Shown: positions 22,131 through 63,217 of the stretch, one piece after another
How the letters are laid out: every line of letters begins with the position of its first letter
Position numbering within the stretch: the stretch's first letter is position 1
From: an uncultured Gemmatimonadales bacterium
GTDB lineage: Bacteria > Gemmatimonadota > Gemmatimonadetes > JACCXV01 > JAHWKZ01
Reading direction: 5' to 3'
Assembly (NCBI GenBank): GCA_947259315.1
Contig: CAMYLR010000021.1
Coordinates: 19,659-83,658 of the forward strand
DNA: 64,000 nt
Notes under the pieces: generated by a model
What the model was told of the DNA's origin: nothing
Database searches by the model: none
What the model saw: the letters and a program-made list of their open reading frames with translations, nothing else
Made by a program: the position numbers and the translations under genes

Positions 22131-22188
22131 TCCCCACAAACCATTCGGGCGACTCCCGACAGACACGCCACCACATCGTTTCTACAAT
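22131..22188 (+). promoter_or_regulatory. Shared-regulon promoter A (before the DUF4136/CBS/Usp cluster)
   Basis: TCCCCAC (22131-22137), 17 nt, CCCGACAGAC (22155-22164), 18 nt, TACAAT (22183-22188). The predicted transcription start is near 22195, leaving a short leader with GGGAGAG before the ATG at 22206. The same three-part layout precedes three other transcription units in the window. Confidence 0.75.
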
Positions 22189-22205
22189 GTGATGGGAGAG
22201 TGTCG

Positions 22206-22772
22206 ATGCAATTCAACTCTGTTCATATCCTTTTCTTGATCGTGATCCTTGCGGGTTGCAGCTCGATGCGCGTAGCGACGTTCGGTGATCCATCGATGTC
22301 GTTCGCCGGTTTTCAGACCTATGCGTGGAGCAACGGCCAAGCAACCGGCGGCGATGAGACGAGCAACGGCGAAGTGGTCGATCGCCGAATCCGTGAAGTG
22401 GTCGATCGTAAGATGGCGACAAAAGGGTACCGATTGGTCGCTTCGGATCACTCCGACTTGTTGATCCACTATCACGCCGCAATGGACGAGAATCTGGATG
22501 TCGCTGCCGAGTACGAACGGTACCGGCTGGGCACAGATCCCTACGGGCGAGAGACGTCCCGCGCGCAGGTCTTCAAGAAAGGCACCTTGGTCCTCGACGT
22601 GGAACAGCCCACGAGTCGACGTCTGATCTGGCGCGGCTGGGCGACCGACGCGATAAACGACGTACCGCGCACGGAGGAGATGCAGTCCAAGATAGATACC
22701 GCGGTCGACAAGATTCTCGACCGGTTCCCCGACTGTCCACGGACCGAGTTGGCCCGGGAGCGGGAGGAGTGA
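22206..22772 (+). CDS. DUF4136 lipoprotein
   Basis: A 188-residue protein with a lipobox (LIVILAGC). The body has the DUF4136 pattern: FAGFQTYAWSNGQ, then REVVDRKMATKGYRLVASDHSDLLIHYH (the family's 'KGY.. pDl.v.y' block), and RRLIWRGWATDAINDV before a C-terminal helix (DTAVDKILDRFPDC). The role of DUF4136 is not established; members are outer-membrane or periplasmic. I chose the ATG at 22206 over the GTG at 22200 because GGGAGAG is correctly spaced only for the ATG. It is first in a likely operon with CBS, Usp and DUF5335 genes under promoter A. Confidence 0.75.
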   Translation: MQFNSVHILFLIVILAGCSSMRVATFGDPSMSFAGFQTYAWSNGQATGGDETSNGEVVDRRIREVVDRKMATKGYRLVASDHSDLLIHYHAAMDENLDVAAEYERYRLGTDPYGRETSRAQVFKKGTLVLDVEQPTSRRLIWRGWATDAINDVPRTEEMQSKIDTAVDKILDRFPDCPRTELAREREE

Positions 22773-22777
22773 GTCAA

Positions 22778-23254
22778 ATGTCCGTACCAGTAGCCCAAGC
22801 CCATGTCAAAGACGTGATGAACGCACCGGCGGTGACCGTGCGTGGGAGAACAAGTCTCAGGGAGACTGCCCGTCTGATGCTCGATAAGGGGATCGGGTGC
22901 GTGCTCGTTGTCGATGCAGACGGCGAGCTCGAAGGCATCATCGCCGCGCGCGACTTTTGTGCCCGGGAGGTGCGGGTACCGTTCTCGACGCTCGAGTTGC
23001 CCCAGGTCTTCGGCCATTGGCTCGGCAGTGAGGGCGCCGAGCAGGCGTATGCCGAGGCGGGCTCCCTGCCCGCCAGGGACATCATGCGCAGTCCGGTTTA
23101 TTCGGTCGATGAGGACGACTCGATCGATCGCGTCCTCGAACTGATGCTCAAGCACGACATCGGGCATGTTCCGGTGCTGCGGGGCGGCCGACCGGTGGGG
23201 GTCGTTTCCGGGCGTGATCTTCTGAAACTCATGCTCGACCATATGCACGATTAG
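22778..23254 (+). CDS. Two-CBS-domain protein
   Basis: A 158-residue protein. CBS1 runs from HVKDVMNAPAVTVRG to about residue 65 and CBS2 from ARDIMRSPVYSVDEDDS to the C-terminus (GRPVGVVSGRDLLKLM). Each ends in the 'G.v..rD' ribose-phosphate-binding motif. A pair of CBS domains senses adenosine nucleotides or similar ligands. About 40 extra residues separate the domains. I prefer the ATG at 22778 to a GTG at 22769 because the GGGAGG site is too close to the GTG. Similar stand-alone CBS proteins (e.g. mycobacterial Hrp1) belong to hypoxia regulons, in keeping with promoter A. Confidence 0.88.
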   Translation: MSVPVAQAHVKDVMNAPAVTVRGRTSLRETARLMLDKGIGCVLVVDADGELEGIIAARDFCAREVRVPFSTLELPQVFGHWLGSEGAEQAYAEAGSLPARDIMRSPVYSVDEDDSIDRVLELMLKHDIGHVPVLRGGRPVGVVSGRDLLKLMLDHMHD

Positions 23255-23268
23255 GGAGGAGGCAATCC

Positions 23269-24195
23269 ATGCTCAACATCAAGAAAGTCCTGATGCCGAC
23301 GGATCTGTCGGTATGCGCTGAGCACGGAATGCGACAGGCGGTGCTGTGGTGCGAGCGATACGATGCCGAGCTTCACATCTTCCACGTCGTCGCGGATACC
23401 GAGCCAGGCTCTGTCAAAGAGAAGAAGGACCGGGCCAGGACCGCGCTGGCAGATCACATCGAGCGGTACGAACCGTTCGGCTTCAAGACCAAGCTCGAGC
23501 TCCGGTTCGGGGGTCCAGCCGCGAAGCAGATCGCCGAGTACGTAACCGAGGAGTCGATCGACCTCGTCGTCATGGGCACGCATTGCCGGACCGGGCTATC
23601 GGGGATCTTCATGGGAAGCGTGGCCGAGAACGTGGTCCGGGACGCGCCGTGTCCGGTGCTCGTCGTCCCGATGCACGAACGCGAACTGGGCGAAACACCA
23701 CCGTCCCGAATTCTCGTGCCGGTGGATTTCTCGGACTGGTCCCACAACGCCGTTGGCTACGCCAAGACGATCGCCGAAGCACACGGCGCGAAGATCTTGC
23801 TTCTGCACGTTATCGAGGACGTCGTGCTGCCGGACTTCTACCTCGCCGCCGGTAGTGCGTTGTTCCTGCAAGAGCCAGAGATACGACGCAAGTCCGAAGA
23901 GCGTCTGAAGACGCTGTTTAGCAGCGCAAGCGGACCCGATGTCCCGATGGAAGCCTACGTCATCAATGGCCGCGCCGCGCTCGACATCGCAGGATTCGCG
24001 GAAGAGAAAGACGTCGACTTCATCGTGCTCCCGACGAGTGGGCTCAGCGGGATCAACCGATTGCTCATCGGCAGCGTCGCCGAGAAAGTCGTCCGTCGGG
24101 CTGTCTGCCCGGTGTTGACGCTCAAGCCATTTGGACACCAGCTGATCGACACCGCGGCAACTCAGACAAAAACCCCGGCGGAGGTTTCATCATGA
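23269..24195 (+). CDS. Tandem-domain universal stress protein
   Basis: A 308-residue protein with two UspA domains. Domain 1 begins IKKVLMPTDLSVCAEHGMRQ and ends in the ATP-binding loop VMGTHCRTGLSGIFMGSVAE. Domain 2 begins PSRILVPVDFSDWSHNAVGY and ends VLPTSGLSGINRLLIGSVAE. Both retain the G-x(2)-G-x(9)-G(S/T)-like nucleotide-binding motif. Tandem Usps of this size bind ATP and modulate stress or growth arrest. A strong GGGAGGAGG site precedes the ATG. The stop overlaps the DUF5335 start (ATGA), which shows translational coupling. Confidence 0.93.
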   Translation: MLNIKKVLMPTDLSVCAEHGMRQAVLWCERYDAELHIFHVVADTEPGSVKEKKDRARTALADHIERYEPFGFKTKLELRFGGPAAKQIAEYVTEESIDLVVMGTHCRTGLSGIFMGSVAENVVRDAPCPVLVVPMHERELGETPPSRILVPVDFSDWSHNAVGYAKTIAEAHGAKILLLHVIEDVVLPDFYLAAGSALFLQEPEIRRKSEERLKTLFSSASGPDVPMEAYVINGRAALDIAGFAEEKDVDFIVLPTSGLSGINRLLIGSVAEKVVRRAVCPVLTLKPFGHQLIDTAATQTKTPAEVSS

Positions 24196-24539
24196 CAGGC
24201 AGCGTAACGACAACGCTCGCTCGGCCACAGTGGGCCCGAGAATTAGAGCGGTTTAGCGAACGCAACGCTGGACGGACGACGATCCTGGAAGTCGATGAAG
24301 CCGACCTCGGGGCTCAAGAGGTTCTCCGCTTACAGCTGGCCGGGGTGTCGTACGATCATGCCAACGATGAAATCGAGATCATGTTTGGGGGCTTTGTCGA
24401 TCCCGGACAACACATGACCCACGTCATCCGCGGCGTGAGCGAGATCGATCGGTTGACTTCGAGCGACAGCCACGATGCGGCGCTTCGGGTAGTCACCGCG
24501 GCGGGACAGACCCTACTGCGGTTCCCAACTCAAGAATAG
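24192..24539 (+). CDS. DUF5335-like small protein
   Basis: A 115-residue soluble protein with a W..EL..FSERNAGR start and a core VLRLQLAGVSYDHANDEIEI. The later H.THVIRGVSEID fits DUF5335 ('pL.gi.yD...d.i.i', 'H.i..p..i'). Function unknown. It overlaps the Usp gene by 4 bp. Members of this family often sit near Usp or CBS genes, as here. Confidence 0.6.
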   Translation: MTGSVTTTLARPQWARELERFSERNAGRTTILEVDEADLGAQEVLRLQLAGVSYDHANDEIEIMFGGFVDPGQHMTHVIRGVSEIDRLTSSDSHDAALRVVTAAGQTLLRFPTQE

Positions 24540-24570
24540 CCAAGCGAGCGGCCGTATATTTGGACGCCAA

Positions 24571-25314
24571 GTGTCGATCAGCGTCCTAACGGTATTCCTC
24601 TACGCACTCGCGACCGCGCTCGCGACCGGTCTCGGAGCGCTCCCGTTCGCGCTCGTACGCCAGCCCACGAGAAGCTGGCTCGGGATTTCCAACGCCATCG
24701 CCGCTGGACTGATGTTGGCAGCCAGCGCCGGTCTCTTTCGAGAGGGATTCGCCTACGGCGTGTCGCAGGTGTTGGTGGGCGCCGCTCTCGGCGTCGGGTT
24801 TATCGTGTTGACCGGCCGCTGGCTCAAGAACGATCACGGACTGAGGATCGGCAAGCTAAAGGGCGTAGACGCCCGCAAAGCGCTTCTGATCATCGGCGTC
24901 ATGACCCTCCACTCGGCGACCGAAGGCATCGGCGTAGGGGTGTCGTTCGGGGGCGGCATGGCACTGGGCATTTTCATCACCGTGGCGATCGCGGTGCACA
25001 ACATCCCCGAGGGGTTGGCGATCAGTCTGGTCCTGGTCCCGCGCGGGGAGTCGGTCTCACGGGCGGCGGCCTGGAGCGTGTTCTCGAGTCTTCCACAGCC
25101 GATCCTGGCGGTACCCGCGTTTCTGTTCGTTGCCGCGTTTGAGCCCTTCTTGCCCTACGGGCTCGGGTTTGCCGGTGGGGCGATGATCTGGATGGTCTTA
25201 GCGGAGCTCATTCCCGACGCACTCGAGGATGCGCCGATCATCTCTGTGGTCATTACCGTGCTGACGTCGATCCTGGCGATGCTCGCTTTTCAAGCCGTGC
25301 TGCGTGGGTCATAA
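24571..25314 (+). CDS. ZIP-family metal transporter
   Basis: A 247-residue, eight-helix protein with a GTG start. The metal site is visible in helices 4 and 5: TLHSATEGIGVGVSF and [16 protein letters not shown], with the H-N-x-P-E-G motif binding Zn2+ or Fe2+. ZIPs move divalent metals into the cytoplasm. It lies 31 bp after DUF5335 and could belong to that operon. It is convergent with nosY, and the two stops overlap by 6 bp. Confidence 0.9.
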   Translation: MSISVLTVFLYALATALATGLGALPFALVRQPTRSWLGISNAIAAGLMLAASAGLFREGFAYGVSQVLVGAALGVGFIVLTGRWLKNDHGLRIGKLKGVDARKALLIIGVMTLHSATEGIGVGVSFGGGMALGIFITVAIAVHNIPEGLAISLVLVPRGESVSRAAAWSVFSSLPQPILAVPAFLFVAAFEPFLPYGLGFAGGAMIWMVLAELIPDALEDAPIISVVITVLTSILAMLAFQAVLRGS

Positions 25315-26121
25315 AGCTCGGGCTGAGAAAAGCTTCTTCCCGGCTAGGAGGCCTCCCACACACCAACCGACCATCGAGGCTCCAGCCAGCGCCACCACCC
25401 CGGCCTGGCCGAATCGGCCGAGCAAGGCCTGGCCAACCGCGCCGAGCGAAGTCGCATCTGGATCCATGATCGTGATCCCCGCCAGTCGATACGCCTCGAT
25501 CGGGTTGATGACCGCCCACACCTGGAGCAACGTCGGTTGCAGTCCCCATTGCACGAACGAGCTCATGATGCCCAGCGTGCCCAACCCCAGGAGAATCAGC
25601 CACACCGTCAGGCCGATACTCGTCGCGCGCGTCCGCGATCCCGTAAATGACGAGACGAGCAGGCCGATCGATACGAACGCGGCGGCGAGCAGCAACGACA
25701 GCGCCAACAAACCGAAGATCAACACGCCCGGGACACCTCGCGCCAGGGCGACCACGCCCGTGATCCCGAGTCCGATCAGCACCGAGATCAACACCGCGGT
25801 CGCGACACCCAGCCACTTGCTCGCAAACACTTGTGACGCGGTGACCGGCTGAGCCAAGATGTAGTCCAACGTTCCCGTCTCGCGCTCGCCGGAGATCGCT
25901 ACCACGGCCGGAATGATCGCCATCAGCGGGACAAAAACCAGCGCAAGGTGCATCAGGCCGGCCAGCGAGCGGGCGAAGCCCCGGTACCCCAGGACCATCA
26001 CGTCGGACTGACCGAACAACATGAGCAACAGCCCGGCGCTCGCGAACGCCACCGCGTTGACGACGAACCAGTAACGACGAATTGCGTCTCGGATCTCTCG
26101 GCGTACGAGCGGCCCGATCAT
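25309..26121 (-). CDS. nosY: NosY-type ABC transporter permease
   Basis: A 270-residue permease with six helices. The N-terminus (IGPLVRREIRDAIRRYWFVV) and the later ISGERETGTLDYILAQPVTA segment are typical of NosY/ABC-2 permeases. With NosF and NosD it forms a transporter that supports assembly of the copper site of nitrous oxide reductase, by moving a sulfur species or modulating NosD. It is last in the nos operon, and its start overlaps the stop of nosF (ATGA). Confidence 0.88.
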   Translation of the reverse strand: MIGPLVRREIRDAIRRYWFVVNAVAFASAGLLLMLFGQSDVMVLGYRGFARSLAGLMHLALVFVPLMAIIPAVVAISGERETGTLDYILAQPVTASQVFASKWLGVATAVLISVLIGLGITGVVALARGVPGVLIFGLLALSLLLAAAFVSIGLLVSSFTGSRTRATSIGLTVWLILLGLGTLGIMSSFVQWGLQPTLLQVWAVINPIEAYRLAGITIMDPDATSLGAVGQALLGRFGQAGVVALAGASMVGWCVGGLLAGKKLFSARAL

Positions 26122-26858
26122 CGGTCGCCCGCGGGTTGATCGGCGGCCGTCAAGAAACGCTTGACGACCTGCTCCAACTCCCGCCCGCCGATGGTGCCGC
26201 GCGCGTCGGTGCCGTTGGAGTCATCCAGCGGGCCGTCAAAGACGATCCCCCCCCGATGCAGAATGATCAATCGGTCGGCGATCGACTCTGCCTCCTCCAA
26301 GCGATGCGTAGCCAGCACCATGCCGCGATCTCCATTGACGTCTGCCAAGTGCTCGATGAACTCGCGTCTGGAGCCCGGGTCGAGACCCGCCGTCGGTTCA
26401 TCCAGCAACAGCACCGCGGAGTCTGCCGCCAGCGCCAGGGCCAGATACGCCTTCTGCAGCATCCCGCCCGAGAGCTGTCGCATCGGCTTGTCCGCATAGA
26501 CGTCCAGGGCGAGCCCAAGATCCGATAGCCGCGACGCGACGCTGGCCGGATCGACATCACGGATGGCACCAAAAAGATCCAGGAATGCGCTCAGGGACAG
26601 ATCGAAGACCGGAGGCATCTGAGGGACGTACGCCAAGCGCTGCCGGACTGCGCGGCCGCTCGACTTGACGTCCAGACCGTCGATCGTGAGTCGGCCCTCG
26701 AAGCCGACCAATCCCAGCATGCACTTGAGAAGGGTCGTTTTCCCGGCGCCGTTGGAGCCCAACACGGCGACGCGCTCCCCGTCGCCGATCTCGAGATCGA
26801 TCGCCTCCAGAATTGTGTGTTTTCCGTACCGCTTGGTGAGCTGATTGGCCTGGATCAT
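26118..26858 (-). CDS. nosF: NosF-type ABC transporter ATP-binding protein
   Basis: A 246-residue ATPase with Walker A (LGSNGAGKTTLLKC), Q-loop (YVPQMPP), ABC signature (MRQLSGGMLQKAYLALAL), Walker B ([16 protein letters not shown]) and H-loop (VLATHRLEEAESI). It powers the NosDFY complex required for NosZ copper-site maturation. It is sandwiched between nosD and nosY with 4-bp overlaps on each side. Confidence 0.92.
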   Translation of the reverse strand: MIQANQLTKRYGKHTILEAIDLEIGDGERVAVLGSNGAGKTTLLKCMLGLVGFEGRLTIDGLDVKSSGRAVRQRLAYVPQMPPVFDLSLSAFLDLFGAIRDVDPASVASRLSDLGLALDVYADKPMRQLSGGMLQKAYLALALAADSAVLLLDEPTAGLDPGSRREFIEHLADVNGDRGMVLATHRLEEAESIADRLIILHRGGIVFDGPLDDSNGTDARGTIGGRELEQVVKRFLTAADQPAGDR

Positions 26859-28249
26859 CGGTCACGACCTCGATCCACGACGACCCCCCATATCAGCAGC
26901 ATCGCGCCGAGCGTCATCGCCGCTACCACCACGCTCCAGCGGCCACCAACGGCATCCTCCCTGCCGATTCCAACGGGTTGTTGTGCCATAGTCGCTCTCC
27001 ACGGATCGAGTGCCGACGCGTTCAGCCTCGGCGCACTATCCACGACCATCGGGATCGGTCGGAGCAGCGGAAAGAATCGCATCGCCCGATCGAGCATCGA
27101 CAGTGCCGGGCTTCCAGAAAAGAACCGCAGATCCGGGTGTCGACTCAGCAGTTCGTCCGAGAAACGCACGTGGGAGAACGGAGTGTCTCCTATGCCATCG
27201 CCGTCTTCGTCAAACCCGACGTACTCACTCCAGTAGTTCTGCGCCCATTGGTTCTGTGCGACCTGTTCCCGAGCTCCACCGGCGACGCCCACCGGACGAC
27301 CATTGGCAGAGAACGCGTTATCGACAAAGCGATTATTGGCGACCGCGGGTAGCAATCGAACGGCCATCCCGTTGTACGCGAACGCATTGTCCCGGAACTC
27401 GTTGGGCATGTTCGCGCTACGCGGCGAGTTGTCGAGGTGAACGCCGACCGCGTTCTTCAGTATCAGGTTGTCGCTCACCGAAACGCGATCGGCATCTTTG
27501 AGCCCAAGCCCCATACCGGTCGCTCCTCGGGCCCCAGCAAACACGTTTCCGCTCAGTTGTAGATGCGTCGAGTACATCAGAAACGCCCCCACCTGGTTAC
27601 CGGCCAACCAGTTGTCCTCGACCATGCTGTAGTTGCTGTACATATAGTGGAGACCATAGCGCCCGTCGAAAACCCGGTTGCCGCGCATCGACAAGCTGTC
27701 AGAAAAGTACACCACCAAGTCGCGGGCTTGTCGAACGTCGTTGTCGAGAACTTGAGTTCCGGCGCTGTACCAAAGACGGATACCATCTCCCCGCCGGGCC
27801 AGAGCGAGTGGCTTGCCGACAACGCGGTTACCGGCGACCAGTGACCCTGGAGCTTGTTTGACGTAGACGCCGTACAACACGTCATCCAGCTGGTTGTCGA
27901 CGATTCGGGACGGCCCGGCGCGCACCATGAGGCCCGAATCCTCACCGTCGACGTCGTCGCCCGAGCTCCGGATGACAAAACCTGAGATCGAGATCGGCGC
28001 CAGCGCCTCGATCACGTGGCCGTGGCCGCCGCCATCGATGATCGGCCACGCTTCGCCGATCAGGACGACCGGGCGATCGATGACGAGCCGCTCTCGGTAA
28101 TTGCCGGGGGCGACGGTGATCGTGTCGCCGGAACTGGCAACCGCGAGAGCCTCGTTGATCGTGGAAAAGGGAGCTTGGGGTCCGACGCGCAACTCTTGGC
28201 TGGCCGGTAGAAGAGTCGGCCATAGGAGCAACAACAGCAGCGTCCGCAT
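26855..28249 (-). CDS. nosD: NosD, periplasmic beta-helix copper-site maturation protein
   Basis: A 464-residue protein. An in-frame TTG lies 15 bp upstream, but a TGAGG site is 9 nt from the ATG at 28249, so I start there. A signal peptide (MRTLLLLLLWPTLLPAS) precedes a right-handed parallel beta-helix with repeating N-x-x-x-x-N rungs (GNRVFDGRYGLHYMYSNYSM, NEFRDNAFAYNGMAVRL, NRFVDNAFSANGRPVGV). The conserved QNQWAQNYWSEYVG.D.DGDGIGD block is a NosD hallmark. A C-terminal helix anchors it (VVVAAMTLGAMLLIWGVVV). NosD delivers or positions copper/sulfur for the NosZ CuZ centre. Confidence 0.93.
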   Translation of the reverse strand: MRTLLLLLLWPTLLPASQELRVGPQAPFSTINEALAVASSGDTITVAPGNYRERLVIDRPVVLIGEAWPIIDGGGHGHVIEALAPISISGFVIRSSGDDVDGEDSGLMVRAGPSRIVDNQLDDVLYGVYVKQAPGSLVAGNRVVGKPLALARRGDGIRLWYSAGTQVLDNDVRQARDLVVYFSDSLSMRGNRVFDGRYGLHYMYSNYSMVEDNWLAGNQVGAFLMYSTHLQLSGNVFAGARGATGMGLGLKDADRVSVSDNLILKNAVGVHLDNSPRSANMPNEFRDNAFAYNGMAVRLLPAVANNRFVDNAFSANGRPVGVAGGAREQVAQNQWAQNYWSEYVGFDEDGDGIGDTPFSHVRFSDELLSRHPDLRFFSGSPALSMLDRAMRFFPLLRPIPMVVDSAPRLNASALDPWRATMAQQPVGIGREDAVGGRWSVVVAAMTLGAMLLIWGVVVDRGRDR

Positions 28250-28260
28250 GGAAGCGATCC

Positions 28261-28863
28261 TCAACTCGCCGCGCGTCGCCGCCGTACTAGCTCGTAGATC
28301 AATATGATCGGTCCCAGCGCTCCGGCGAGCAGCATGATCATCCCACCGGCAGCCGGGTAACTGGTGACCTCAAACTGCCCGATGCTCGTGACACCGAGGA
28401 ACTTTGGCGTGAACGGATCGATCGTGAGCGGTGCCCCGGAGGCGAGTCCCTGACCAAACCGTGTCAGCCAGGTCTGAAAATCGAACATCATCACCGCGCC
28501 AAACACCGAGAAGTCGATGTAACCGATGGCAGCGATCGGCATCCGCCCGACCAGCGCGGCCAGAACCGCGAAACCTAGAAACCGGAGAATGAAGAACGGG
28601 ATAAAGATGAACTCGCGAAACTCGTCCGGCTCGATCTCCGCCATCCCGATGTAGTGATTCAGGATGTTGATCTCCTGAAGGTCACCGGCCAGTTCGTGCG
28701 AGTAGATCTTGAGCTCCAAGCCCTGCGGGTACTGCGGAGCATTGAGCCCGATGTTCCATACCGGCAGAAAGAGACACGGAATCAGCGCCAGCGCCACCAC
28801 CAACAGAGCCACGCGGCTGGCCCGTGAGATGTCGCCCCGGAAAAACTCCGTTATGTCTGTCAA
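28261..28863 (-). CDS. nos-operon integral membrane protein
   Basis: A 200-residue protein with about five helices (VALLVVALALIPCLFLPVW, FIPFFILRFLGFAVLAALVG, YIDFSVFGAVMMFDF, MIMLLAGALGPIILIYELV). It carries INILNHYIGMAEI and an acidic turn between helices. Genes for similar proteins sit between nosZ and nosD in clade II nos clusters; the role is unproven, perhaps electron transfer or assembly. It overlaps both neighbours by 4 bp (CBS gene upstream, nosD downstream), so it is an integral part of this operon. Confidence 0.72.
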   Translation of the reverse strand: MTDITEFFRGDISRASRVALLVVALALIPCLFLPVWNIGLNAPQYPQGLELKIYSHELAGDLQEINILNHYIGMAEIEPDEFREFIFIPFFILRFLGFAVLAALVGRMPIAAIGYIDFSVFGAVMMFDFQTWLTRFGQGLASGAPLTIDPFTPKFLGVTSIGQFEVTSYPAAGGMIMLLAGALGPIILIYELVRRRRAAS

Positions 28864-29285
28864 ATCACGCCTGCGACCTCGGCGCGAACGAGCGCAGAGG
28901 CCGTTCCGAGAACCCTCCCCAAGTGGATAAGGATGTCATCCAGCGAAACCACTCCGATGAGCTCGTCATCATCATCAACGATCGGGATGCGCCGAACACC
29001 GTGCGCCTCCATGCGCTCCAGACATTGCTCGACGTCAACGTTGGCCGACAAACAAAGCGGCATGCGCGTCATGACCGACGATACGGGCGCCTCCAACGAA
29101 CCGTGCCCGTCAGTGCCCACCCGCAAAACGATGTCGCGATCCGTCAGAATCCCGATCACCTTGTTGTCTTCGACGACAACCACTGAGCCGACGTCCCGGT
29201 CTTTCATGATTTGAGCTGCGTCAGCCACCGTATCGTTTTGACAGACAGTAGCCGCGGAACGTGTAATCAGGTTCTCGATAAGCAT
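28860..29285 (-). CDS. Two-CBS-domain protein inside the nos operon
   Basis: A 141-residue protein. CBS1: ENLITRSAATVCQNDT to VIGILTDRDIVLRVG. CBS2: SSVMTRMPLCLSANVDVEQC to ELIGVVSLDDILIHLG. The 'TDRDI' motif in the first domain binds the ligand ribose. The product likely senses adenine nucleotides. It lies 16 bp downstream of nosZ and overlaps the membrane-protein gene, so it is cotranscribed with N2O reductase. CBS genes are not standard parts of nos clusters. It is shorter than the CBS protein at 22778, with no insert between the domains. Confidence 0.9.
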   Translation of the reverse strand: MLIENLITRSAATVCQNDTVADAAQIMKDRDVGSVVVVEDNKVIGILTDRDIVLRVGTDGHGSLEAPVSSVMTRMPLCLSANVDVEQCLERMEAHGVRRIPIVDDDDELIGVVSLDDILIHLGRVLGTASALVRAEVAGVI

Positions 29286-29301
29286 CTCAAACCCTCCTTT
29301 G

Positions 29302-55505: not shown

Positions 55506-55765
55506 GGCACCTCTCCCGAGCCCCACTGTAGCTCTTCGAGCTCGCTCATCTGTTGCAGGATCTCGAACGCTTTCTTCGCCTCCTCCTCGTCGACCTTCGA
55601 GATCGCGAACCCGACATGGATGACGGCGTAGTCGCCGATATCGACCTGGTCGGCGATGTACTCGAGACACACTTCGCGTCGCACGCCGCCAAAATCGACA
55701 ACCCCCATCGTGATGCCGGACGCATTATCGATCTCGACGATCTTTCCAGGAATCCCGAGGCACAT
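55502..55765 (-). CDS. hypC: Hydrogenase maturation chaperone HypC
   Basis: An 87-residue protein beginning [12 protein letters not shown], the HypC signature whose Cys2 binds the Fe intermediate. It continues [20 protein letters not shown] and a C-terminal helix. It shuttles between HypD and the hydrogenase large-subunit precursor. It starts 2 bp after the hypF stop and overlaps hypD by 4 bp. Confidence 0.97.
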
Positions 55766-55767
55766 CG

Positions 55768-58074
55768 CTACGCTCCTCGCTCACGCCGTAAGAGTTCCGC
55801 CGCGACCGCCGCCTGCCCGTAGCTTATCGCCCCATCGTTAGGGCTCAGCTGGCAGGGCACCAACACCCGCCGCCCGACCGACTCGAGCCGCTCCCGCACC
55901 GACGAAAGCAACCGATCGTTCTGGAAGCACCCGCCGCTGAGCGCTACCGCATCGCATCCGTGACTCTCGCACACGTGGGATGCGAGGTCCGCGCTGGCCG
56001 CAGCCACGCTCTCGTGGAAGCGCGCCGCCAGCGTTCGGACATCGTCCCCGGCCGCCCTGCGCTCTCCCAGCGCGACCAGGAGCGGCAGCGGATCGAGCTC
56101 CAACAAACCGCCTTCGGTGTCGCGGGCTGGAAACACCAACGGCTCGACGCGCTCGCTACCCGCCAGCGCCTCGAGCTCCATCGCCGCCTGTCCCTCGTAG
56201 TGCGCCACGCGACGAACACCCAGCACCGCAGCCGCCGCGTCAAAGAGTCTACCCAACGACGACGCGAGCGGCGCGTTGAGCGATCGCTCGATCTGCTTTT
56301 GGGCCGTCTTCCGCTCTCGCTCCGGCACGTCTTCGAACGCGCGTGCGAACGCTTCCGCCGCAGTCGGCTCCAGCCAGAGGTACCCGAGGGCGACCCGCCA
56401 CGGCCGCCGAATCGCCAGATCGCCGCCTGGGAGCGGTGCGTACCGCAACCGTCCGACCCGTTGGTAGCCGGCCAAGTCGGCGACCAAGACCTCGGCGCCC
56501 CACACGTTTCCGTCGTCGCCGTACCCGGTTCCGTCGAACGACAACCCGACGACCGGCTCCGTCACGCCGTGCTCGGCCGCGACCGCGGCGACGTGCGCGT
56601 GGTGGTGTTGGACCGCGATCACTCGCTCGAACCCGAATTCTTCGGCGACCTGCGTCGACATGTAACCGGGGTGGAGATCGCGAACCGCGATCTCGGGCTC
56701 CACCCTGAAGAGCTTTCGGTACCGCTCGAGCGTCAGCTCGAAGTGATCGAGCGTCTCCAGGTTCTCCATATCGCCGATGTGCTGGCTCACGTAAACGTTG
56801 CGATCACTGGCCAGGGCGAACGTATTCTTGAGGTGTGGTCCGACTGCGACGATCGGCACCGGCGCATCGAACGGCAGCAAGACCGGCAGCGGCGCGTACC
56901 CGCGCGCGCGGCGTAGGAAGACGGGCGTCTCGTCGACGACCCGTACGACGGAGTCGTCGTAGCGCGAAACGATCTCGCGATCGTGCAGAAGAAATGCGTC
57001 GGCGATGCCGGCCAACCGCTGACGCGCCTCGTCATTGCCGGTCGCGATCGGCTCTTCGCTGACGTTTCCACTCGTCATGACGAGGGGGCGGCGCACGCCG
57101 TCCAGCACGAGGTGGTGGAGCGGAGTGTAGGCGGTCATAACACCGATAGTATCGAGCCCGGGCGAAACCGATGGCGCGATTGGCGAGTTGCCGCGCTCAT
57201 GCAAGAGCACGATCGGGCGCTCGCTCGATCCGAGCAAACGCTCCTCCTCGGGTCCAACAGCTCCGAGCGCCCGGGCGTCGTCGATCGTCCGCACCATCAG
57301 CGCCAACGGCTTCGCCTCGCGCGCCTTGCGTCGCCGGAGGCGCTGGACCGCCTCGTCGTCGGTCGCGTCGACCGCCAAGTGGAAGCCGCCGAGGCCGCGG
57401 AGCGCCACGATCCGACCGCTTCTAAGCGCGTCAGCGGTGGCCTCGATCGCATCTTCCCCATCCAACCGGTCGCCCTCGGCGGTCTCGAACCAGATCCGCG
57501 GTCCGCAGTCGGGACAGCTGTTTGTCTCCGAGTGGTAGCGGCGATCGTTTGGGGTGCTGTACTCGCGGAGACACTCCTCGCACTGCTGGAAGGCGCGCAT
57601 GCTCGTCCGCTCCCGGTCGTACGGCATCTCCTCGATGACCGTATACCGTGGTCCGCAGTCGGTGCACGTGATGAACGGGTACCGATAGCGGCGATCGGCG
57701 GTGTCGAAGAACTCCGCCGCGCACGCATCGCACATCGCGACGTCGGGAGAGATCGGCAGGCTGCCGCGCGGCTCGGTGTCACTCGCCTTGACCTCGAACT
57801 CGGTGACGTGGCTGGGATCGATCGCGTGTTCCTCAAGCGAGTCGATCCGCGCTAGCGGCGGCGCCTCGGTGACGAGGGCATCTCGGAAAGCGGCGATCTC
57901 ACCGGCGGGTCCCTCGACCTCGATCCGCACCTCGCCGGCCTCGTTTCGCACCCAGCCGCCGAGGCCATGGCGCATCGCCAGCCGATGCACAAACGGGCGA
58001 AACCCGACCCCCTGCACCACACCGACGAGGTGCAGCTGGACCGCCTTTTGCCCGTCCCGGGTGTTGGTGCTCAC
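55768..58074 (-). CDS. hypF: Carbamoyltransferase HypF
   Basis: A 768-residue multidomain protein. An N-terminal acylphosphatase domain (GVVQGVGFRPFVHRLAMRHG) is followed by zinc-finger pairs (CDACAAEFFDTADRRYRYPF, CTDCGPRYT, CEECLREYS, CPDCGPRIW). A YrdC-like domain follows (IVALRGLGGFHLAVDATDDE), then the Kae1/HypF-like carbamoyltransferase (HHAHVAAVAAEHGV, VVGLSFDGTGYGDDGNVWG, VALSGGCFQNDRLLSSV). It makes the thiocarboxamide on HypE that becomes cyanide. The GTG start overlaps hypB's stop. Confidence 0.96.
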   Translation of the reverse strand: MSTNTRDGQKAVQLHLVGVVQGVGFRPFVHRLAMRHGLGGWVRNEAGEVRIEVEGPAGEIAAFRDALVTEAPPLARIDSLEEHAIDPSHVTEFEVKASDTEPRGSLPISPDVAMCDACAAEFFDTADRRYRYPFITCTDCGPRYTVIEEMPYDRERTSMRAFQQCEECLREYSTPNDRRYHSETNSCPDCGPRIWFETAEGDRLDGEDAIEATADALRSGRIVALRGLGGFHLAVDATDDEAVQRLRRRKAREAKPLALMVRTIDDARALGAVGPEEERLLGSSERPIVLLHERGNSPIAPSVSPGLDTIGVMTAYTPLHHLVLDGVRRPLVMTSGNVSEEPIATGNDEARQRLAGIADAFLLHDREIVSRYDDSVVRVVDETPVFLRRARGYAPLPVLLPFDAPVPIVAVGPHLKNTFALASDRNVYVSQHIGDMENLETLDHFELTLERYRKLFRVEPEIAVRDLHPGYMSTQVAEEFGFERVIAVQHHHAHVAAVAAEHGVTEPVVGLSFDGTGYGDDGNVWGAEVLVADLAGYQRVGRLRYAPLPGGDLAIRRPWRVALGYLWLEPTAAEAFARAFEDVPERERKTAQKQIERSLNAPLASSLGRLFDAAAAVLGVRRVAHYEGQAAMELEALAGSERVEPLVFPARDTEGGLLELDPLPLLVALGERRAAGDDVRTLAARFHESVAAASADLASHVCESHGCDAVALSGGCFQNDRLLSSVRERLESVGRRVLVPCQLSPNDGAISYGQAAVAAELLRRERGA

Positions 58075-58730
58075 CCCTTAACCGTAGAACGAAGGAAGTC
58101 GCACCACTCGTCGACCCCCTCGCCCGTCAACGCCGAGGTGTGAAAGAAGCGGATCTCCGGGTTCACCTCCTTGGCCATCGCGATCGCGCGATCGACATCG
58201 AACGTCACGTGTGGTAGGAGGTCGATCTTGTTGAGCACTGCATAACGAGAGCGGCGGAACATCTGCGGGTACTTGGCTGGCTTGTCCTCACCCTCGGTCA
58301 CCGAGAAGATCACGACCTTCGCCGCTTCGCCCAGGTCAAAGCCCGCCGGACACACGAGGTTCCCGACGTTTTCGATCAGTATGAGATCGGTCAGGGCGAG
58401 GTCGATTCGAGCCAGCGCCGCTTCAACCTGTCGAGCGTCGAGGTGGCAGCCGCCACCGGTCACGACCGCCTGCACGAGTTTCTCGGTGTGGTTCGCCAAC
58501 CGCTCAGCGTCGTTCTCGGTCTGAACGTCACCGGCGATGACCGCGATTTCGAGCTCGCCACCGAGCCTCTCCAGCGTGCGCTCGAGCAACAACGTCTTAC
58601 CGGATCCGGGCGACGACACGAGGTTGTACGCGACCACCCCGTCAGCAGCGAGACGATCGCGAATCCCGGCCGCGATCGCCTCGTTCCGCTTGAGAACTCG
58701 CTCCTCGATCTCGACCCGCCGAACCGTCAT
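58071..58730 (-). CDS. hypB: Nickel-incorporation GTPase HypB
   Basis: A 219-residue GTPase starting at ATG 58730 (overlaps hypA). Walker A: NLVSSPGSGKTLLLERTLE; the metal-site pair Cys-His is in TGGGCHLDARQVE; IENVGNLVCPAGFDLGE and NKIDLLPHV complete the G-domain. The N-terminal nickel-binding Cys motif and His-rich tract of some HypBs are absent, so storage may be done by the His-rich permease loop. It helps deliver Ni2+ to the large subunit. Confidence 0.95.
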   Translation of the reverse strand: MTVRRVEIEERVLKRNEAIAAGIRDRLAADGVVAYNLVSSPGSGKTLLLERTLERLGGELEIAVIAGDVQTENDAERLANHTEKLVQAVVTGGGCHLDARQVEAALARIDLALTDLILIENVGNLVCPAGFDLGEAAKVVIFSVTEGEDKPAKYPQMFRRSRYAVLNKIDLLPHVTFDVDRAIAMAKEVNPEIRFFHTSALTGEGVDEWCDFLRSTVKG

Positions 58731-58972
58731 TCGTCCAGCTCCAGATACGTCATTCGCAAGACATCCCCCGGCAACTGCTCGACGATCGGCTTGGCTCGCC
58801 CAAACGGTGGGTTCGACAGGAGCGCCTCCAGGCAAAACTCGAGGTTGTCGACCTCGACCCCGGCGTCGCAGCCGACATCCAAGCCGACCTCGATGACGTT
58901 CGCCAGCCGGTCTCGCCCGACATGCGCTTCCGCCATCCGGCACACTTCCACCGCGATGCTCATCTCATGCAT
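58727..58972 (-). CDS. hypA: HypA-like nickel chaperone lacking the zinc-binding domain
   Basis: An 81-residue protein. It begins MHEMSIAVEVCRMAEAHVGR and keeps IEVGLDVGCDAGVEVDNLEF and the closing strand DVLRMTYLELDE. Classical HypA has about 115 residues with two CxxC pairs around residues 73-110. Here the stretch between KPIVEQLPG and DVLRM is missing, so no CxxC occurs anywhere. The nickel-ligand His2 is present. It overlaps hypB (4 bp) and the protease gene (8 bp). Operon position leaves little doubt about identity, but zinc control of nickel transfer must differ. Confidence 0.8.
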   Translation of the reverse strand: MHEMSIAVEVCRMAEAHVGRDRLANVIEVGLDVGCDAGVEVDNLEFCLEALLSNPPFGRAKPIVEQLPGDVLRMTYLELDE

Positions 58973-59471
58973 CGTGCACGACCTCGCGACTCTCGTGTCC
59001 CCACGACTCGATCCGTTCGACGACCCGTTGCAGAAGCTCTGGGAGCGCTTGCGTGACGACCGGGCTCAACTCGACAGACATCTCTACGCGGCCGGGCTGG
59101 AGGCCGATCGCCACCGTGTCATCCGGCAATTTGCCACGAAGCTCGGCCAGCGCGAGAACCTCGCGCAGATCGATCTGGTGAGGAGAGATCTTGGTGCTGA
59201 AGAACCGGGGCAGCTCGTCACGCTCGAGCACGACGACGCTACCCGGGTCCGCGCCGACATCGATCGCGTCAAGCAGGATGACGCGTTTGGCAACCTCGAT
59301 GAACGGCAGCAGGTTCATCCCCCACGTGCCACCGTCCAGCATTTCCACATGGGGCTCGAAGGTCCACCCCTCGCGCAGCGATTCGAGCGCCGCCACACCG
59401 ATCCCATCGTCCCCCATCAGGGGGCTACCGACCCCGATTACGACCGTTTCGTCCGCGGCCCCGTCATACAT
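58965..59471 (-). CDS. [NiFe] hydrogenase maturation protease
   Basis: A 168-residue endopeptidase of the HyaD/HycI/HybD family. It carries IGVGSPLMGDDGIGVAALES (nickel-coordinating acid), MLDGGTWGMNLLPFIEVA, ILLDAIDVGADPGSV and KISPHQIDLREVLALAEL with the conserved His. It removes the C-terminal tail after nickel insertion; the large subunit ends DPCMACGVH-VLDAKGD, supplying the cleavage site. I start at the ATG at 59471. Confidence 0.92.
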   Translation of the reverse strand: MYDGAADETVVIGVGSPLMGDDGIGVAALESLREGWTFEPHVEMLDGGTWGMNLLPFIEVAKRVILLDAIDVGADPGSVVVLERDELPRFFSTKISPHQIDLREVLALAELRGKLPDDTVAIGLQPGRVEMSVELSPVVTQALPELLQRVVERIESWGHESREVVHDA

Positions 59472-60207
59472 CCTCGAACGGTACGTCCTCACGTACGAAC
59501 CGCCCACCGCTGACGATCGAGGACACGCGCGCCTCCCGGTGCACGAGATCGGCCCTCAAGCTCATGTAGACGTGGACCGGGATGAAAATCATAAAGAACC
59601 ACGTGTTCACGTGGTGGATGAACCGCACCAGCTGGAGCCCGCCCATCATCGGCGCGACCCACCCGAACATCGTCGCAAAGAACCCCCCGGGGTTCGCGAG
59701 ACCGTACAGCGTAAACCCAGTGACGACCTGAATGACGACGACTAGGTACACGAACGTGAACAAGAACTGCTGCAACGGGTTGTGCCCCAAGTAATGGGGC
59801 GCCTCGAGCGGGCGGACGAAAGCGTACTTGAGCAAGATCTGGTACGCGTGCACCCAGTCCTGCCGATGGACCGGGAACAGCGCTCTCCACCGCTCGTACC
59901 GGTTCCCGACGAAGAGCCAGTAGACCCGCACGATGCCCGTCGCGACCAGGAGCCCCGCCGCCGCGAAGTGGATCATCCGCGCCCACCCCATTAAGTAGTG
60001 GGCGCTCGGCTCTCCGGCGGTCATGAAGTACGGCTTGCCGATGTAGAGGCCGCTTGCCGCCAGAAGCACAATGCAGCCGGCCGCCCACCAGTGCATCGCC
60101 CGGATCGGCCAGTGCCACACGTACACCCACCGGTACCCAGGTTTGACCCCCAGTTGGGGCTGTGATGTAGTTCGCTCGAATACGCGCAGACGACTCCCGG
60201 GTGTCAT
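59464..60207 (-). CDS. cybH: Ni/Fe-hydrogenase b-type cytochrome
   Basis: A 247-residue, four-helix diheme cytochrome b (HyaC/CybH type). Helix 1: WPIRAMHWWAAGCIVLLAAS; later helices MGWARMIHFAAAGLLVATGI, LFTFVYLVVVIQVVTGFTL and VRFIHHVNTWFFMIFIPVHV. Conserved His ligands occur in these helices. It anchors the hydrogenase and passes electrons from H2 to the quinone pool. The ATG at 60207 overlaps the large-subunit stop. Confidence 0.93.
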   Translation of the reverse strand: MTPGSRLRVFERTTSQPQLGVKPGYRWVYVWHWPIRAMHWWAAGCIVLLAASGLYIGKPYFMTAGEPSAHYLMGWARMIHFAAAGLLVATGIVRVYWLFVGNRYERWRALFPVHRQDWVHAYQILLKYAFVRPLEAPHYLGHNPLQQFLFTFVYLVVVIQVVTGFTLYGLANPGGFFATMFGWVAPMMGGLQLVRFIHHVNTWFFMIFIPVHVYMSLRADLVHREARVSSIVSGGRFVREDVPFEDV

Positions 60208-61919
60208 TGGACCTTCACCTCCGTCACCAGATCGCCCTTGGCATCCAGCACGTGGACCCCACACGCCATGCAGGGATCAAACGAGTGGATCGTCCGCAGG
60301 ATCTCGATCGGTCGTTCCGGGTCGACCAGCGGGTGGTTGTCCACGAGCGCCGCTTCGTAGGGCCCCATCTGACCCTGCGGGTCTCGCGGCGAGCAGTTCC
60401 ACGTGCTCGGCACGACACACTGATAGCGGCTGATCTTCCCGTCCTGGATCTGGATCCAGTGACCGAGCGCACCGCGCGCTGCGTCGAGGTACCCGTACCC
60501 CTGCGCGGTCGAAGGCCACGTCTCCGGATCCCACTTGTCGGTGTTGAACGTCGCCACGTCGCCGGTGCGGATCCGCCCGACAAGCTCGTCGTACCACTCC
60601 TCGAGCTTCATCGCCAAGAGCCGCGTCTCGACCCCGCGTGCCGCCGTCCGTCCGAGCGTGGAGAACAGCGCCCCGGCACCGACATTTAGCCGTCCGAGCG
60701 CTTCGGTGATCACTTCGCGCGCATCGTCGTGACCCGAAGCGAATGCGACCAGCATCCGCGACAGCGGTCCGACCTCCATCGGCATCTCGTCGTAGCGTGG
60801 CGACTTCATCCACGAGTACTTGTCGTGATCCTGGAGGTACTCCCAAGGCGGCGCGGGGCCGGTGTACTTCGCTTTCGTCTCGCCCTCCCACGGGTGGAGA
60901 CCCGCGTCGTCGCCGACCGAGTACTCGTACCACGAGCTCGTCACGTACTCCGCGACCTTCTCGTGATCGTACGGCAATACTTCGTTGAGGTTCTTGTCGA
61001 CGATGATCCCGCGCGGGAAGTAGAGCGAGTCGTAGTCCTTGGCGTCTCCGGCCGGAAACTCGCCCACCGCGAGGTAGTTACCGGTACCGCCGCCGATCGC
61101 CGCCCAATCTTTGTAGAACGACGCGACCGCCAGCAGATCCGGCCAGTACACCTGCTCGACGAACCGCCGCGCGCGGCGGATCATGTCGTGAATGTCGGTC
61201 AACCGCTCGGCGTTGATCGTCGCCGTGTCCGACAAGTTGATCGCTGACGCCATGCCGCCCACGAGGAAGTTCGGGTGCGGGTTCTTGCCGCCGAAGATCG
61301 TGTGCAAGCGGATCACGTCGCGCTGCCAGTCGAGCGCTTCGAGGTAGTGAGCTACCGCCATCAGGTTCGCCTCCGGCGGCAGGTTGTACGCCGGATGACC
61401 CCAGTAGCCGTTGGTAAAGATCCCCAGTTGACCGGAGGAAACGAACTTCGCCAGGCGATCCTTGATCTCCTGGAAGTACGTGTCCGAGTTGTTGGGCCAC
61501 GGCGAAAGCTGTTTCGCGAGCGCCGATGTCGCCGCGGGATCGGCGTCGAGCGCACTTACGACATCCACCCAATCGAGCGCGTGCAGGTGGTAGAAGTGGA
61601 TGACGTGGTCCTGCACCGTTTGCATGCCGTGGATCAGGTTGCGGATGATCGTCCCGTTGCGCGGCACCTCGATGTCGAGCGCGTCCTCCACCGCCCGGCA
61701 CGAGGCGATCGCGTGCACGACCGTGCAAACGCCGCAGATCCGCTGGGTGAACGCCCATGCGTCGCGCGGGTCGCGGCCCTGCATGATCAGCTCGATCCCC
61801 CGAAACTGTGTCGAGGACGCCCACGCGTCGGCGATCCGGCCGTCCTCGGCCTGGACCTCGATGCGAAGGTGGCCTTCGATCCGGGTGATCGGATCGACAA
61901 CTACTTTAGTTCTGGCCAT
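60204..61919 (-). CDS. hyaB: [NiFe] hydrogenase large subunit (group 1, membrane-bound)
   Basis: A 571-residue catalytic subunit. L1 motif DPITRIEGHLRIEVQ with later RICGVCTVVHAIASC, and L2 motif DPCMACGVHVLDAKGDL at the end; the four Cys ligands of Ni are complete and no Sec is used. The tail after His is cleaved by the nearby protease. It splits H2 in the periplasm after Tat export with the small subunit. hya names follow E. coli gene order and are approximate. It starts at ATG 61919, overlapping the small-subunit gene. Confidence 0.96.
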   Translation of the reverse strand: MARTKVVVDPITRIEGHLRIEVQAEDGRIADAWASSTQFRGIELIMQGRDPRDAWAFTQRICGVCTVVHAIASCRAVEDALDIEVPRNGTIIRNLIHGMQTVQDHVIHFYHLHALDWVDVVSALDADPAATSALAKQLSPWPNNSDTYFQEIKDRLAKFVSSGQLGIFTNGYWGHPAYNLPPEANLMAVAHYLEALDWQRDVIRLHTIFGGKNPHPNFLVGGMASAINLSDTATINAERLTDIHDMIRRARRFVEQVYWPDLLAVASFYKDWAAIGGGTGNYLAVGEFPAGDAKDYDSLYFPRGIIVDKNLNEVLPYDHEKVAEYVTSSWYEYSVGDDAGLHPWEGETKAKYTGPAPPWEYLQDHDKYSWMKSPRYDEMPMEVGPLSRMLVAFASGHDDAREVITEALGRLNVGAGALFSTLGRTAARGVETRLLAMKLEEWYDELVGRIRTGDVATFNTDKWDPETWPSTAQGYGYLDAARGALGHWIQIQDGKISRYQCVVPSTWNCSPRDPQGQMGPYEAALVDNHPLVDPERPIEILRTIHSFDPCMACGVHVLDAKGDLVTEVKVQ

Positions 61920-63084
61920 CGTCGCCCTCCTCGTTCGGCAGTTCATCTTCCTCACCCGGCGGTATCACGTCGATCCGCGAGTACTCCCCGCGATGTCGCA
62001 TTCTCGCCCGGTGAACCCCAGTCGCTACCGCGTGCGCCGCAACGCCCGCCGTCGCGCCGGCCGCGAGCGCGAAGCCGATCGTATCGGCCGTGCTTTCGAC
62101 GCCGAAGCCGGCGACTTCTGGCAATCTGTCATAGAACGGTGTGTACCGATCCCAGAAATCCCTCTCGGTGCACCCGATACACGGGTGACCCGCACCGATC
62201 GGCCAGTTCGTGCGCGTATTCCACTGGAAGATCGGGCACGGCGAGAAGCACGCTGGTCCCTTGCACCCCACCTTGTAGAGGCACCAACCCCGACGCGCCG
62301 AGTCGTCGTCAAACTCTTCGACGAACTGACCGGCGTCGAAGTGTGCCCGGCGGGGGCACTGATCGTGGATCCGCGCACCGTATGCAAACAGCGGACGGCC
62401 GTCCGCGTCCAGATCGGGCACGCGACCGAACGTCAAGTAGTGAACCAGGGTCGCGGTCACGACGTCCGCGATCGGTGGGCAACCGGCGATGTTGACGACC
62501 GGCTTGTCAAAGACGATCTGCGAGACGCCAACCGCCCCGGTCGGATTCGGATTCGACGCCTGGATGTTGCCCCAATGGGCGCAGGCACCGATCGCGATCA
62601 CTGCGGCCGCTCCTTCGGCCGCCTCCTCGAGGACCTCCTTCGCGGTGCGGCCCCCGATCGTCGTGTAGATCCCATCCTCGTTGAGCGGGACGGACCCGGT
62701 CACGAGCAGCAGGTACTGCCCGTCGTTCTCCTCCATCGCCTGGTGGAGCGCTGATTCAGCGGCGCTACCAGCGGCCGCCATCAACGTGTGGTTGTAGTCG
62801 AGGGAAATCAGGTCGAGCACGAGGTCGCCGATGGTGGGCTCCGCGGTGCGGATCACACTCTCGACGCAGCCGGTGCACTCTTGAAGCTGAAGCCAGATCA
62901 CGCTCGGTCGTCGTGTCTGCTCCAGCGCCTTGACGATCTGTGGCGTGAGCGTCGAGCCCAGCCCCAGTATGACCGCCATCTCGCCGCAAAAGGCGAGGAA
63001 ATCGCGCCGACTGACCCCGCTGCCCGCTAGGTGCTCGCCGAGAGACTGATCCTCGGTCCACGGAAGCGAGGACGGGAAAATCAT
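61906..63084 (-). CDS. hyaA: [NiFe] hydrogenase small subunit with Tat signal
   Basis: A 392-residue electron-transfer subunit. A strong GGAGG site fixes the ATG at 63084. The Tat motif SRRDFLAFCGEMAVILG is near residue 25. The proximal cluster region is LQECTGCVESVI with GACAHWGNIQASNPNP. The Cys pattern lacks the two extra cysteines of O2-tolerant group 1d enzymes (Gly and Asn instead), so the proximal cluster is a conventional [4Fe-4S]. The medial/distal cluster region CPIFQWNTRTNWPIGAGHPC follows. A C-terminal membrane helix (FALAAGATAGVAAHAVATGV) anchors it. First gene of the operon under promoter D. Confidence 0.95.
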   Translation of the reverse strand: MIFPSSLPWTEDQSLGEHLAGSGVSRRDFLAFCGEMAVILGLGSTLTPQIVKALEQTRRPSVIWLQLQECTGCVESVIRTAEPTIGDLVLDLISLDYNHTLMAAAGSAAESALHQAMEENDGQYLLLVTGSVPLNEDGIYTTIGGRTAKEVLEEAAEGAAAVIAIGACAHWGNIQASNPNPTGAVGVSQIVFDKPVVNIAGCPPIADVVTATLVHYLTFGRVPDLDADGRPLFAYGARIHDQCPRRAHFDAGQFVEEFDDDSARRGWCLYKVGCKGPACFSPCPIFQWNTRTNWPIGAGHPCIGCTERDFWDRYTPFYDRLPEVAGFGVESTADTIGFALAAGATAGVAAHAVATGVHRARMRHRGEYSRIDVIPPGEEDELPNEEGDDGQN

Positions 63085-63159
63085 GGCGTTACCTCCGGTG
63101 AGGGTCGTCCGGGGCATCGCCGTGCCCCGAGGACACATCTATGCGAGGATATTTCATCT

Positions 63160-63217
63160 ATCGTAGGGCGTTCCCCGACCCCTCGTCTGTCGGGAATAAC
63201 CAGTATAGGCGTGGGGG
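63160..63217 (-). promoter_or_regulatory. Shared-regulon promoter D (before the hydrogenase operon)
   Basis: In the gene direction: CCCCCAC (63217-63211), 16 nt, CCCGACAGAC (63194-63185), 19 nt, TACGAT (63165-63160). The expected start near 63153 leaves a leader of about 70 nt with GGAGG before the ATG at 63084. Box-to-box spacing sums to 35 nt, as in A and C. Confidence 0.75.

Follow-up and report, generated by a model that had tools for sequence, protein, structure and literature searches.

Why do genes that serve N2O reduction and H2 oxidation carry the same letters upstream of their starts as those encoding stress proteins and a response regulator? The question is raised by a stretch of 64 000 nucleotides from an uncultured Gemmatimonadales bacterium (contig CAMYLR010000021.1, positions 19 659–83 658; referred to below as the window and numbered from its first letter). 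A preliminary description of the window had pointed to four strings of common build, each containing a box 1 (YCYCCAC), the decamer CCCGACAGAC and a −10 box, before an operon for CBS and Usp proteins, the nos operon, a response-regulator gene (RR1) and a set of hydrogenase genes. We consider it quite probable that these strings belong to a shared operator, likely to be bound by RR1, which is predicted to switch on nos, hydrogenase, stress-protein and feoB genes, probably at low oxygen.

The four promoter sites and a putative operator

All four strings lie at the coordinates and on the strands originally given for them. The decamer begins at 22155 (+), 31774 (−), 32527 (−) and 63194 (−) and occurs nowhere else in the window; by simple arithmetic, uniform chance would give ∼0.1 copy per 64 kilobases (kb). 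For the strings beginning at 22131, 31799, 32551 and 63217, the spacers between box 1 and the decamer are 17, 18, 17 and 16 nucleotides (nt), respectively, and those between the decamer and the −10 box are 18, 18, 18 and 19 nt. The proposal of a common promoter-type element before four transcription units is upheld, with the decamer at the position expected of a −35 contact and 18–19 nt from a TANNNT box. Its parts require some rewording. The −10 box stands at a fixed distance, but its consensus is TANNNT rather than the TASRAT-like form first suggested; the decamer, which had been called invariant, is exact in the window, whereas in relatives the constant core is GACAGAC and not the whole decamer; and box 1 is present, but usually as the right half of a palindrome whose left half had gone unnoticed, or as the middle half-site at nos, rather than as a separate element.

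As read from the letters, the operator consists of a palindrome, TGTGGGGA-N3-TCCCCACA, a half-site, TCCCGACAGAC, one or two steps of 23 base pairs (bp) further on and, after 18–19 nt, a TANNNT −10 box. The −10 box was absent from the class-wide search pattern described below and is hence an unselected feature; TANNNT is nevertheless found 17–19 nt downstream in 26 of 45 distinct pattern-selected sites (∼0.7 expected by arithmetic), and at an offset of 18 nt the A of the box is present in 35 and the T in 36 of the 45. Other unselected features of these sites are a T preceding the decamer (31/45) and G-rich letters 5–8 nt before box 1. The latter are the left arm of an inverted repeat, GTGRGGA-N3-TCCCCAC. 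At 38 sites the left half of the palindrome matches at 4.55 of seven letters, compared with 3.50 ± 0.14 after shuffling (none of 2000 shuffles reaches the observed value), and over 91 sites the register with a gap of three pairs at 59%, other registers giving 26–42%.

Box 1 and the decamer share TCCC[CG]ACA and are therefore direct repeats ∼23 bp apart. A good palindrome is present at 66 sites; it lies 17–19 nt from the core in 46, a class that was partly selected by the search pattern, 41–43 nt in 17, a class that was not, and at another distance in three. The long-spacing sites contain a middle half-site (6.29 of eight letters versus 4.67 after shuffling, n = 17; none of 1000 shuffles), which is also seen when only the 12 long sites outside the pattern-selected ones are considered (5.83 versus 4.64; again none of 1000). 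The nos promoter of the window is of this long type, its palindrome occupying 31833–31815 and its middle and proximal half-sites beginning at 31799 and 31774. One or two steps of 23 bp correspond to about two and four helical turns, which suggests that protein subunits would be placed on one face of the DNA.

Recurrence in the genome and in the class

Of the 394 genomes of the class, 30 contain the pattern YCYCCAC-N15–19-CCCGACAGAC, with 42 matches in all, compared with three for the reversed control pattern. Part of these 42 probably arose by chance or reflect coding sequence: two matches repeated in two genomes of one genus (G037 and G111) have this appearance, as do several matches that lack a −10 box. 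Such doubtful matches are counted in the 42 and were excluded from the profile. A looser pattern, CCAC-N14–19-CCCGACAG, was much less clean in the own genome (nine matches versus five for the control) and was dropped.

A sequence-only profile was built from 36 aligned sites out of 38 candidates, L139 and L155 being left out. Across the 2.4 Mb genome from which the window comes it finds seven sites scoring from 38 to 30.1 bits, four of them in the window; the next match scores 17.8 bits. The profile had been trained on six of these seven, the exception being the site before feoB. The three sites outside the window precede an X-Pro-peptidase-like gene, an aminopeptidase-P-like gene and feoB. The 17.8-bit match (G000:C31:48081–48116; loci L213 and L265) contains two CCCGACA boxes with TAGAAT 19 nt further on and precedes a small open reading frame and a cytochrome c gene; judging from this layout it may be genuine.

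With stricter filters, the profile finds 67 sites in 33 of the 394 genomes. At E ≤ 1 it gives no match in 62 loci (0.9 Mb) around regulator homologs in named genomes, nearly all from other phyla. The preliminary description had said that its motif would be in doubt if it were as frequent inside genes as upstream of them. This comparison came out in its favour: 20 of 62 sites lie inside a predicted gene, compared with 2520 of 3100 random positions in the same loci (81%), and 38 of the 62 have a predicted start on the same strand within 250 nt. The gene caller is crude; even the RR1 site was flagged as intragenic.

The response regulator

RR1 contains Response_reg (99.5 bits) and GerE (66.4 bits) domains, as in NarL/FixJ-type regulators. 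Weak homologs are widespread: a query of 218 residues (L141:9818–10474) finds matches at E ≤ 1e-40 in 276 of 394 genomes. The set at E ≤ 1.1e-72, comprising 94 genomes as counted from the listing, was therefore taken as informative. It includes 28 of the 33 motif genomes versus 66 of the 361 others (p = 1e-14) and eight of the nine genomes that were found by the profile and missed by the first pattern (p = 1.3e-5). The two are also linked: 16 of the 33 motif genomes have one or more sites within 10 kb of the regulator gene, and these make up 23 of the 67 sites (∼0.4 expected). In G008 a weaker homolog, outside the informative set, adjoins the site. Among the best 30 regulator loci, 13 have a profile match at E ≤ 0.05, mostly weak and in many cases facing away from that gene, at the 5′ end of the kinase gene. 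The earlier guess that the regulator is the product of 31839–32486 has gained support from this family co-occurrence and linkage, and the operator is likely to be read by the NreC-like RR1 or its orthologs.

Predicted target genes

Sites before nosZ, hydrogenase, Usp and feoB genes are seen in other genomes as well. Homologs of nosZ are present in 117 of 370 genomes. Among the 30 nosZ loci that were read, seven have GACAGAC-N16–20-TANNNT upstream in the direction of nosZ, and all seven are among the 11 regulator-positive loci (7/11 versus 0/19, p = 1.6e-4); of the four regulator-positive loci without a site, one (G027) is a fragment that is missing its start. Outside the 30, G100 has a site before cytochrome c–nosZ genes. 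When 66 genomes with nosZ were compared, 15 had the regulator no more than 15 kb away from it. No site was found upstream of nosZ in the loci read from families f5 and f7 (for example L284–L288 and L296–L298), some of which have regulator homologs of ∼55–60% identity; a different operator, or different control, may operate there. The hydrogenase small subunit has homologs in 57 of 370 genomes, and among 30 loci read a site within ∼200 nt upstream is found in five of 15 regulator-positive loci versus none of 15 others (p = 0.02). The G004 hydrogenase, with a site ∼900 nt upstream, was not counted.

By reading of the loci, the genes behind sites include a second kinase in nine genomes, TonB-like genes in six, feoB in two (the own genome and one of the same genus) and Usp in two besides the own genome. 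Pfam assigns eight of 55 downstream proteins to kinases, five to TonB_C, five to cytochrome c and two each to FeoB, hydrogenase, Usp, radical SAM and nitronate monooxygenase. The regulon first proposed (H2 oxidation, N2O reduction and stress proteins) has to be widened to feoB, TonB-like genes, cytochromes c and the second kinase. The CBS and Usp families are present as described, but 'nucleotide-sensing', the term applied to them, is only a family name.

The highest profile score in the class, 45.2 bits, belongs to strong sites at TonB-like genes in six genomes of genus g20 (L160, L257, L159, L258, L259 and L260). G004, of the same family as the own genome, has at least six sites around its kinase–regulator pair (L141:3000–11700), which precede two Usp genes, DUF5335, a second kinase and a sigma-70-type gene. 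In G085 (L252:5891–6144) two overlapping sites on opposite strands form a divergent pair between radical SAM and nitronate-monooxygenase-like genes.

The predicted sensor kinase

The cognate kinase of RR1 is predicted to be the product of 33176–34363. The best match of its PAS domain in the PDB is FixL (E = 6.6e-16). His112, which aligns without gaps to the heme-ligand His of FixL, is kept in all 33 kinase orthologs compared, and the position of the FixL distal Arg is occupied by Leu in 23, Met in eight and Ile in two of them. The window kinase has a single Cys (residue 237), which lies outside the PAS domain, so a cluster of the NreB type is not expected; 20 of the 33 orthologs have a Cys somewhere in residues 86–165. 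Our guess, from the PAS type and from the targets, is that the signal is oxygen or redox.

A second, often divergently encoded kinase (HAMP-type in some members) could instead be the main sensor, in which case the signal would be extracellular, for example nitrate or nitrite, and not oxygen. That its gene has a site in nine genomes and that its homologs adjoin the regulator in several loci make this worth considering, but the regulator neighbour in the own genome is the PAS kinase (the second kinase was not sought there), and with the FixL-type His kept throughout the orthologs compared we regard the second kinase as main sensor as rather unlikely.

Proposed mode of action and alternatives

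If the operator is bound by RR1, the signal, presumably oxygen or some other redox cue, would be perceived by the kinase through its FixL-like PAS domain, and a dimer of the phosphorylated regulator would occupy the palindrome, further subunits filling the half-sites in phase with it. The promoter-proximal subunit, on GACAGAC (roughly −40 to −31), would stand in for a −35 element by touching the sigma-70 polymerase on its region-4 side (class II activation). The letters are laid out as at class II activator promoters, with the operator overlapping −35 and at a fixed distance from the −10 box. RR1 would also act on its own promoter in a positive loop, and its message is possibly leaderless, with the ATG 7 nt past TAGCAT.

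A number of observations weigh against this reading. The genomes are related, so that all of the p values overstate independence, and without the own genome the tests weaken to p = 4.4e-4 for nos and p = 0.04 for hydrogenase. Covariation between the halves of the palindrome is not significant (88 of 500 permutations over the 91 sites reach the observed pairing), so it is the consensus that speaks for the palindrome. In several genomes the site next to the kinase–regulator operon faces the other way, toward a second kinase gene. As many as 66 regulator-positive genomes have no profile match at E ≤ 1e-5; in these the operators may have drifted or the regulator may read something else. Two motif genomes that fall outside the regulator set, G113 and G121, are 82% and 71% complete. 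Finally, the peptidases, a lipoprotein and the TonB-like genes among the predicted downstream genes do not speak for anaerobiosis.

The operator might belong to another transcription factor of the class, the response regulator being merely a fellow target like nos and hydrogenase. RR1 carries the site, as any target would, and in G001 (of the same genus) and G296 sites are present and a close regulator homolog was not found in the assemblies. The regulator set nevertheless covers 28 of the 33 motif genomes, sites lie within 10 kb of the regulator in 16 genomes, and NarL-family regulators use sites of this type, in which a palindrome is joined by spaced half-sites with GGG/CCC cores; we regard another factor as improbable. 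It is more improbable still that an alternative sigma factor recognizes GACAGAC as its −35 element, with the upstream boxes secondary or belonging to an activator: a constant core 18–19 nt from TANNNT does resemble a promoter by itself, and one relative has a site before a sigma-70-type gene (L141:11681–12388), but the −10 box is of the sigma-70 type, and a palindrome with steps of 23 and 46 bp, co-occurring with the core, needs a dimeric DNA-binding protein. Chance, or descent of the four sites in 41 kb from one duplicated segment, can be set aside almost entirely, as the spacer sequences differ where boxes and spacing are kept and the class gives 42 matches against three for the control.

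Comparison with known systems

RR1 as the probable reader of the operator invites comparison with other NarL-family regulators. The oxygen- and nitrate-responsive NreBC/NreABC system of staphylococci likewise pairs such a regulator with a soluble PAS–HisKA_3 kinase, and JGI names NreC for 24 of the 120 homologs listed. Among the 25 NCBIfam matches listed for RR1 none exceeds its cut-off, the best being UvrY/SirA/GacA (192.6 of 280 bits). Upstream of respiratory operons, phospho-NreC is reported to occupy a GC-rich palindrome (PMC5694512; PMC8139620). In its letters, the putative operator described here has such a palindrome in such a place. The palindrome GTAGGG-N4-CCCTAC, taken here as that of NreC, is close to TGTAGGGAACTCCCCTACA, a variant changed on both sides in one relative (L200:1427–1494). 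We know of no half-site array with a 23 bp step for NreC, and the targets here are nos and hydrogenase, not nar/nir. The PAS domain of NreB is reported to hold an oxygen-labile [4Fe-4S] cluster (PMC8139620), whereas its four-Cys feature is absent from the window kinase. Because of this difference we do not claim membership of NreBC.

The DosR/DevR hypoxia regulon of mycobacteria also combines a NarL-family regulator with a HisKA_3 kinase, and DevR (PDB entry 3c3w) is among the regulator matches (E = 1.3e-26). The DosR regulon includes Usp and CBS proteins and, in some species, hydrogenase. DosS and DosT sense through heme GAF domains, whereas the window kinase has PAS and no GAF domain was found in it in the domain search; the DosR consensus site also differs from the present operator. 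The closest kinds of system are thus NreBC, by homolog names and reported palindrome, and DosR, by regulon content. FixL provides the best PDB match for the PAS domain and its proximal heme His is kept, but the distal Arg is replaced and the kinase core is HisKA_3. Low-oxygen control of the nos operon is exerted in Proteobacteria by FNR, Dnr and FixK, which are CRP-fold regulators with the site TTGAT-N4-ATCAA; by eye, the operators here contain neither this element nor any other CRP/FNR-type site.

Judged by titles, no paper found for Gemmatimonadota together with nos, hydrogenase, regulators or two-component systems describes this operator or any regulator of nos in the group. The exact decamer occurs in 22 papers, and the 20 listed concern, again by title, host biology, primers and other work, none of it on this promoter. 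The sites would thus mark a NarL-family regulon that joins nos and hydrogenase in organisms that are probably Gemmatimonadota; homolog names point to this phylum, with a match in Gemmatimonadetes MAG Ww583 at 64% identity and the name Gemmatimonadota for four of the 120 homologs listed. A wider reading, put forward tentatively and with somewhat more doubt than belief, is that of a class-wide regulon under a single two-component system, NreC-like in its regulator and FixL-like in the PAS domain of its kinase, with a half-site array of 23 bp pitch. Such a system might jointly command a clade II-type N2O reductase, an uptake hydrogenase, ferrous-iron import and Usp/CBS proteins. Clade II-type nosZ might then have a regulator dedicated to it, and the regulon might be a separately evolved counterpart of the DosR hypoxia regulon. 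Carriers of clade II-type nosZ are considered important sinks for N2O. The predicted joint switch, probably for low oxygen, would if real govern a greenhouse gas and hydrogen together, and this pairing of N2O reduction with H2 oxidation would point to N2O respiration driven by H2. With a candidate regulator, an operator at exact coordinates and a list of putatively co-regulated genes, the regulation of nos here becomes testable.

Features of the window

The operators, regulatory genes and predicted target operons are summarized in Table 1. NosZ matches TIGR04246 at 873.8 bits (cut-off 625) and is therefore classed as Sec-dependent, of the clade II type. The genes at 53311–63138 are predicted targets of the hydrogenase promoter.

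Table 1. Regulatory elements and genes of the window.
Feature	Positions	Strand	Basis or remarks
Palindrome-like box, CBS/Usp operon	22121–22137	+	GTAGGCA-AAG-TCCCCAC; right half (22131–22137) is box 1
Proximal half-site, CBS/Usp operon	22155–22164	+	CCCGACAGAC
Predicted −10 box, CBS/Usp operon	22183–22188	+	TACAAT
Palindrome, nos operator	31815–31833	−	TGTGGGGAAACTCCCCGCA; overlooked in the preliminary description
Middle half-site, nos operator	31793–31799	−	TCTCCAC; box 1
Proximal half-site, nos operator	31765–31774	−	CCCGACAGAC
Predicted −10 box, nos	31741–31746	−	TACGAT
Palindrome-like box, response-regulator promoter	32545–32561	−	GTGCGGA-CTT-TCCCCAC
Proximal half-site, response-regulator promoter	32518–32527	−	CCCGACAGAC
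Predicted −10 box, response-regulator promoter	32494–32499	−	TAGCAT; 7 nt before ATG at 32486
Distal box, hydrogenase promoter	63201–63227	−	Weak palindrome around GGAGGAAATTCCCCCCAC; box 1 is 63217–63211
Proximal half-site, hydrogenase promoter	63185–63194	−	CCCGACAGAC
Predicted −10 box, hydrogenase	63160–63165	−	TACGAT
RR1, NarL/NreC-like response regulator, likely DNA-binding regulator	31839–32486	−	Receiver and LuxR-type helix–turn–helix; family co-occurrence and linkage with motif
RR2, second response regulator	32580–33095	−	Receiver frame-broken in this assembly
Cognate histidine kinase	33176–34363	−	FixL-like PAS, HisKA_3, HATPase
Predicted target operon: DUF4136 lipoprotein, CBS protein, tandem Usp, DUF5335, ZIP transporter	22206–25314	+	Pfam
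Predicted nos target operon	25309–31730	−	Pfam, NCBIfam
Cytochrome c, nos operon	31245–31730	−	
Sec-dependent NosZ	29302–31299	−	TIGR04246
CBS protein, nos operon	28860–29285	−	
Unknown protein, nos operon	28261–28863	−	
NosD	26855–28264	−	
NosF-type ABC ATPase	26118–26858	−	
Membrane protein	25309–26121	−	NosY-like by position only
Predicted hydrogenase target genes: [NiFe] small and large subunits, cytochrome b; then HypB-type GTPase, HypF, HypD, AIRS-type (HypE-like) protein	53311–63138	−	

RR2 is split between two frames inside the receiver domain (32580–33200), as by an out-of-frame deletion, which may reflect decay after duplication or an assembly error. The ortholog in a genome of the same family matches RR2 at 78% and RR1 at 64%.

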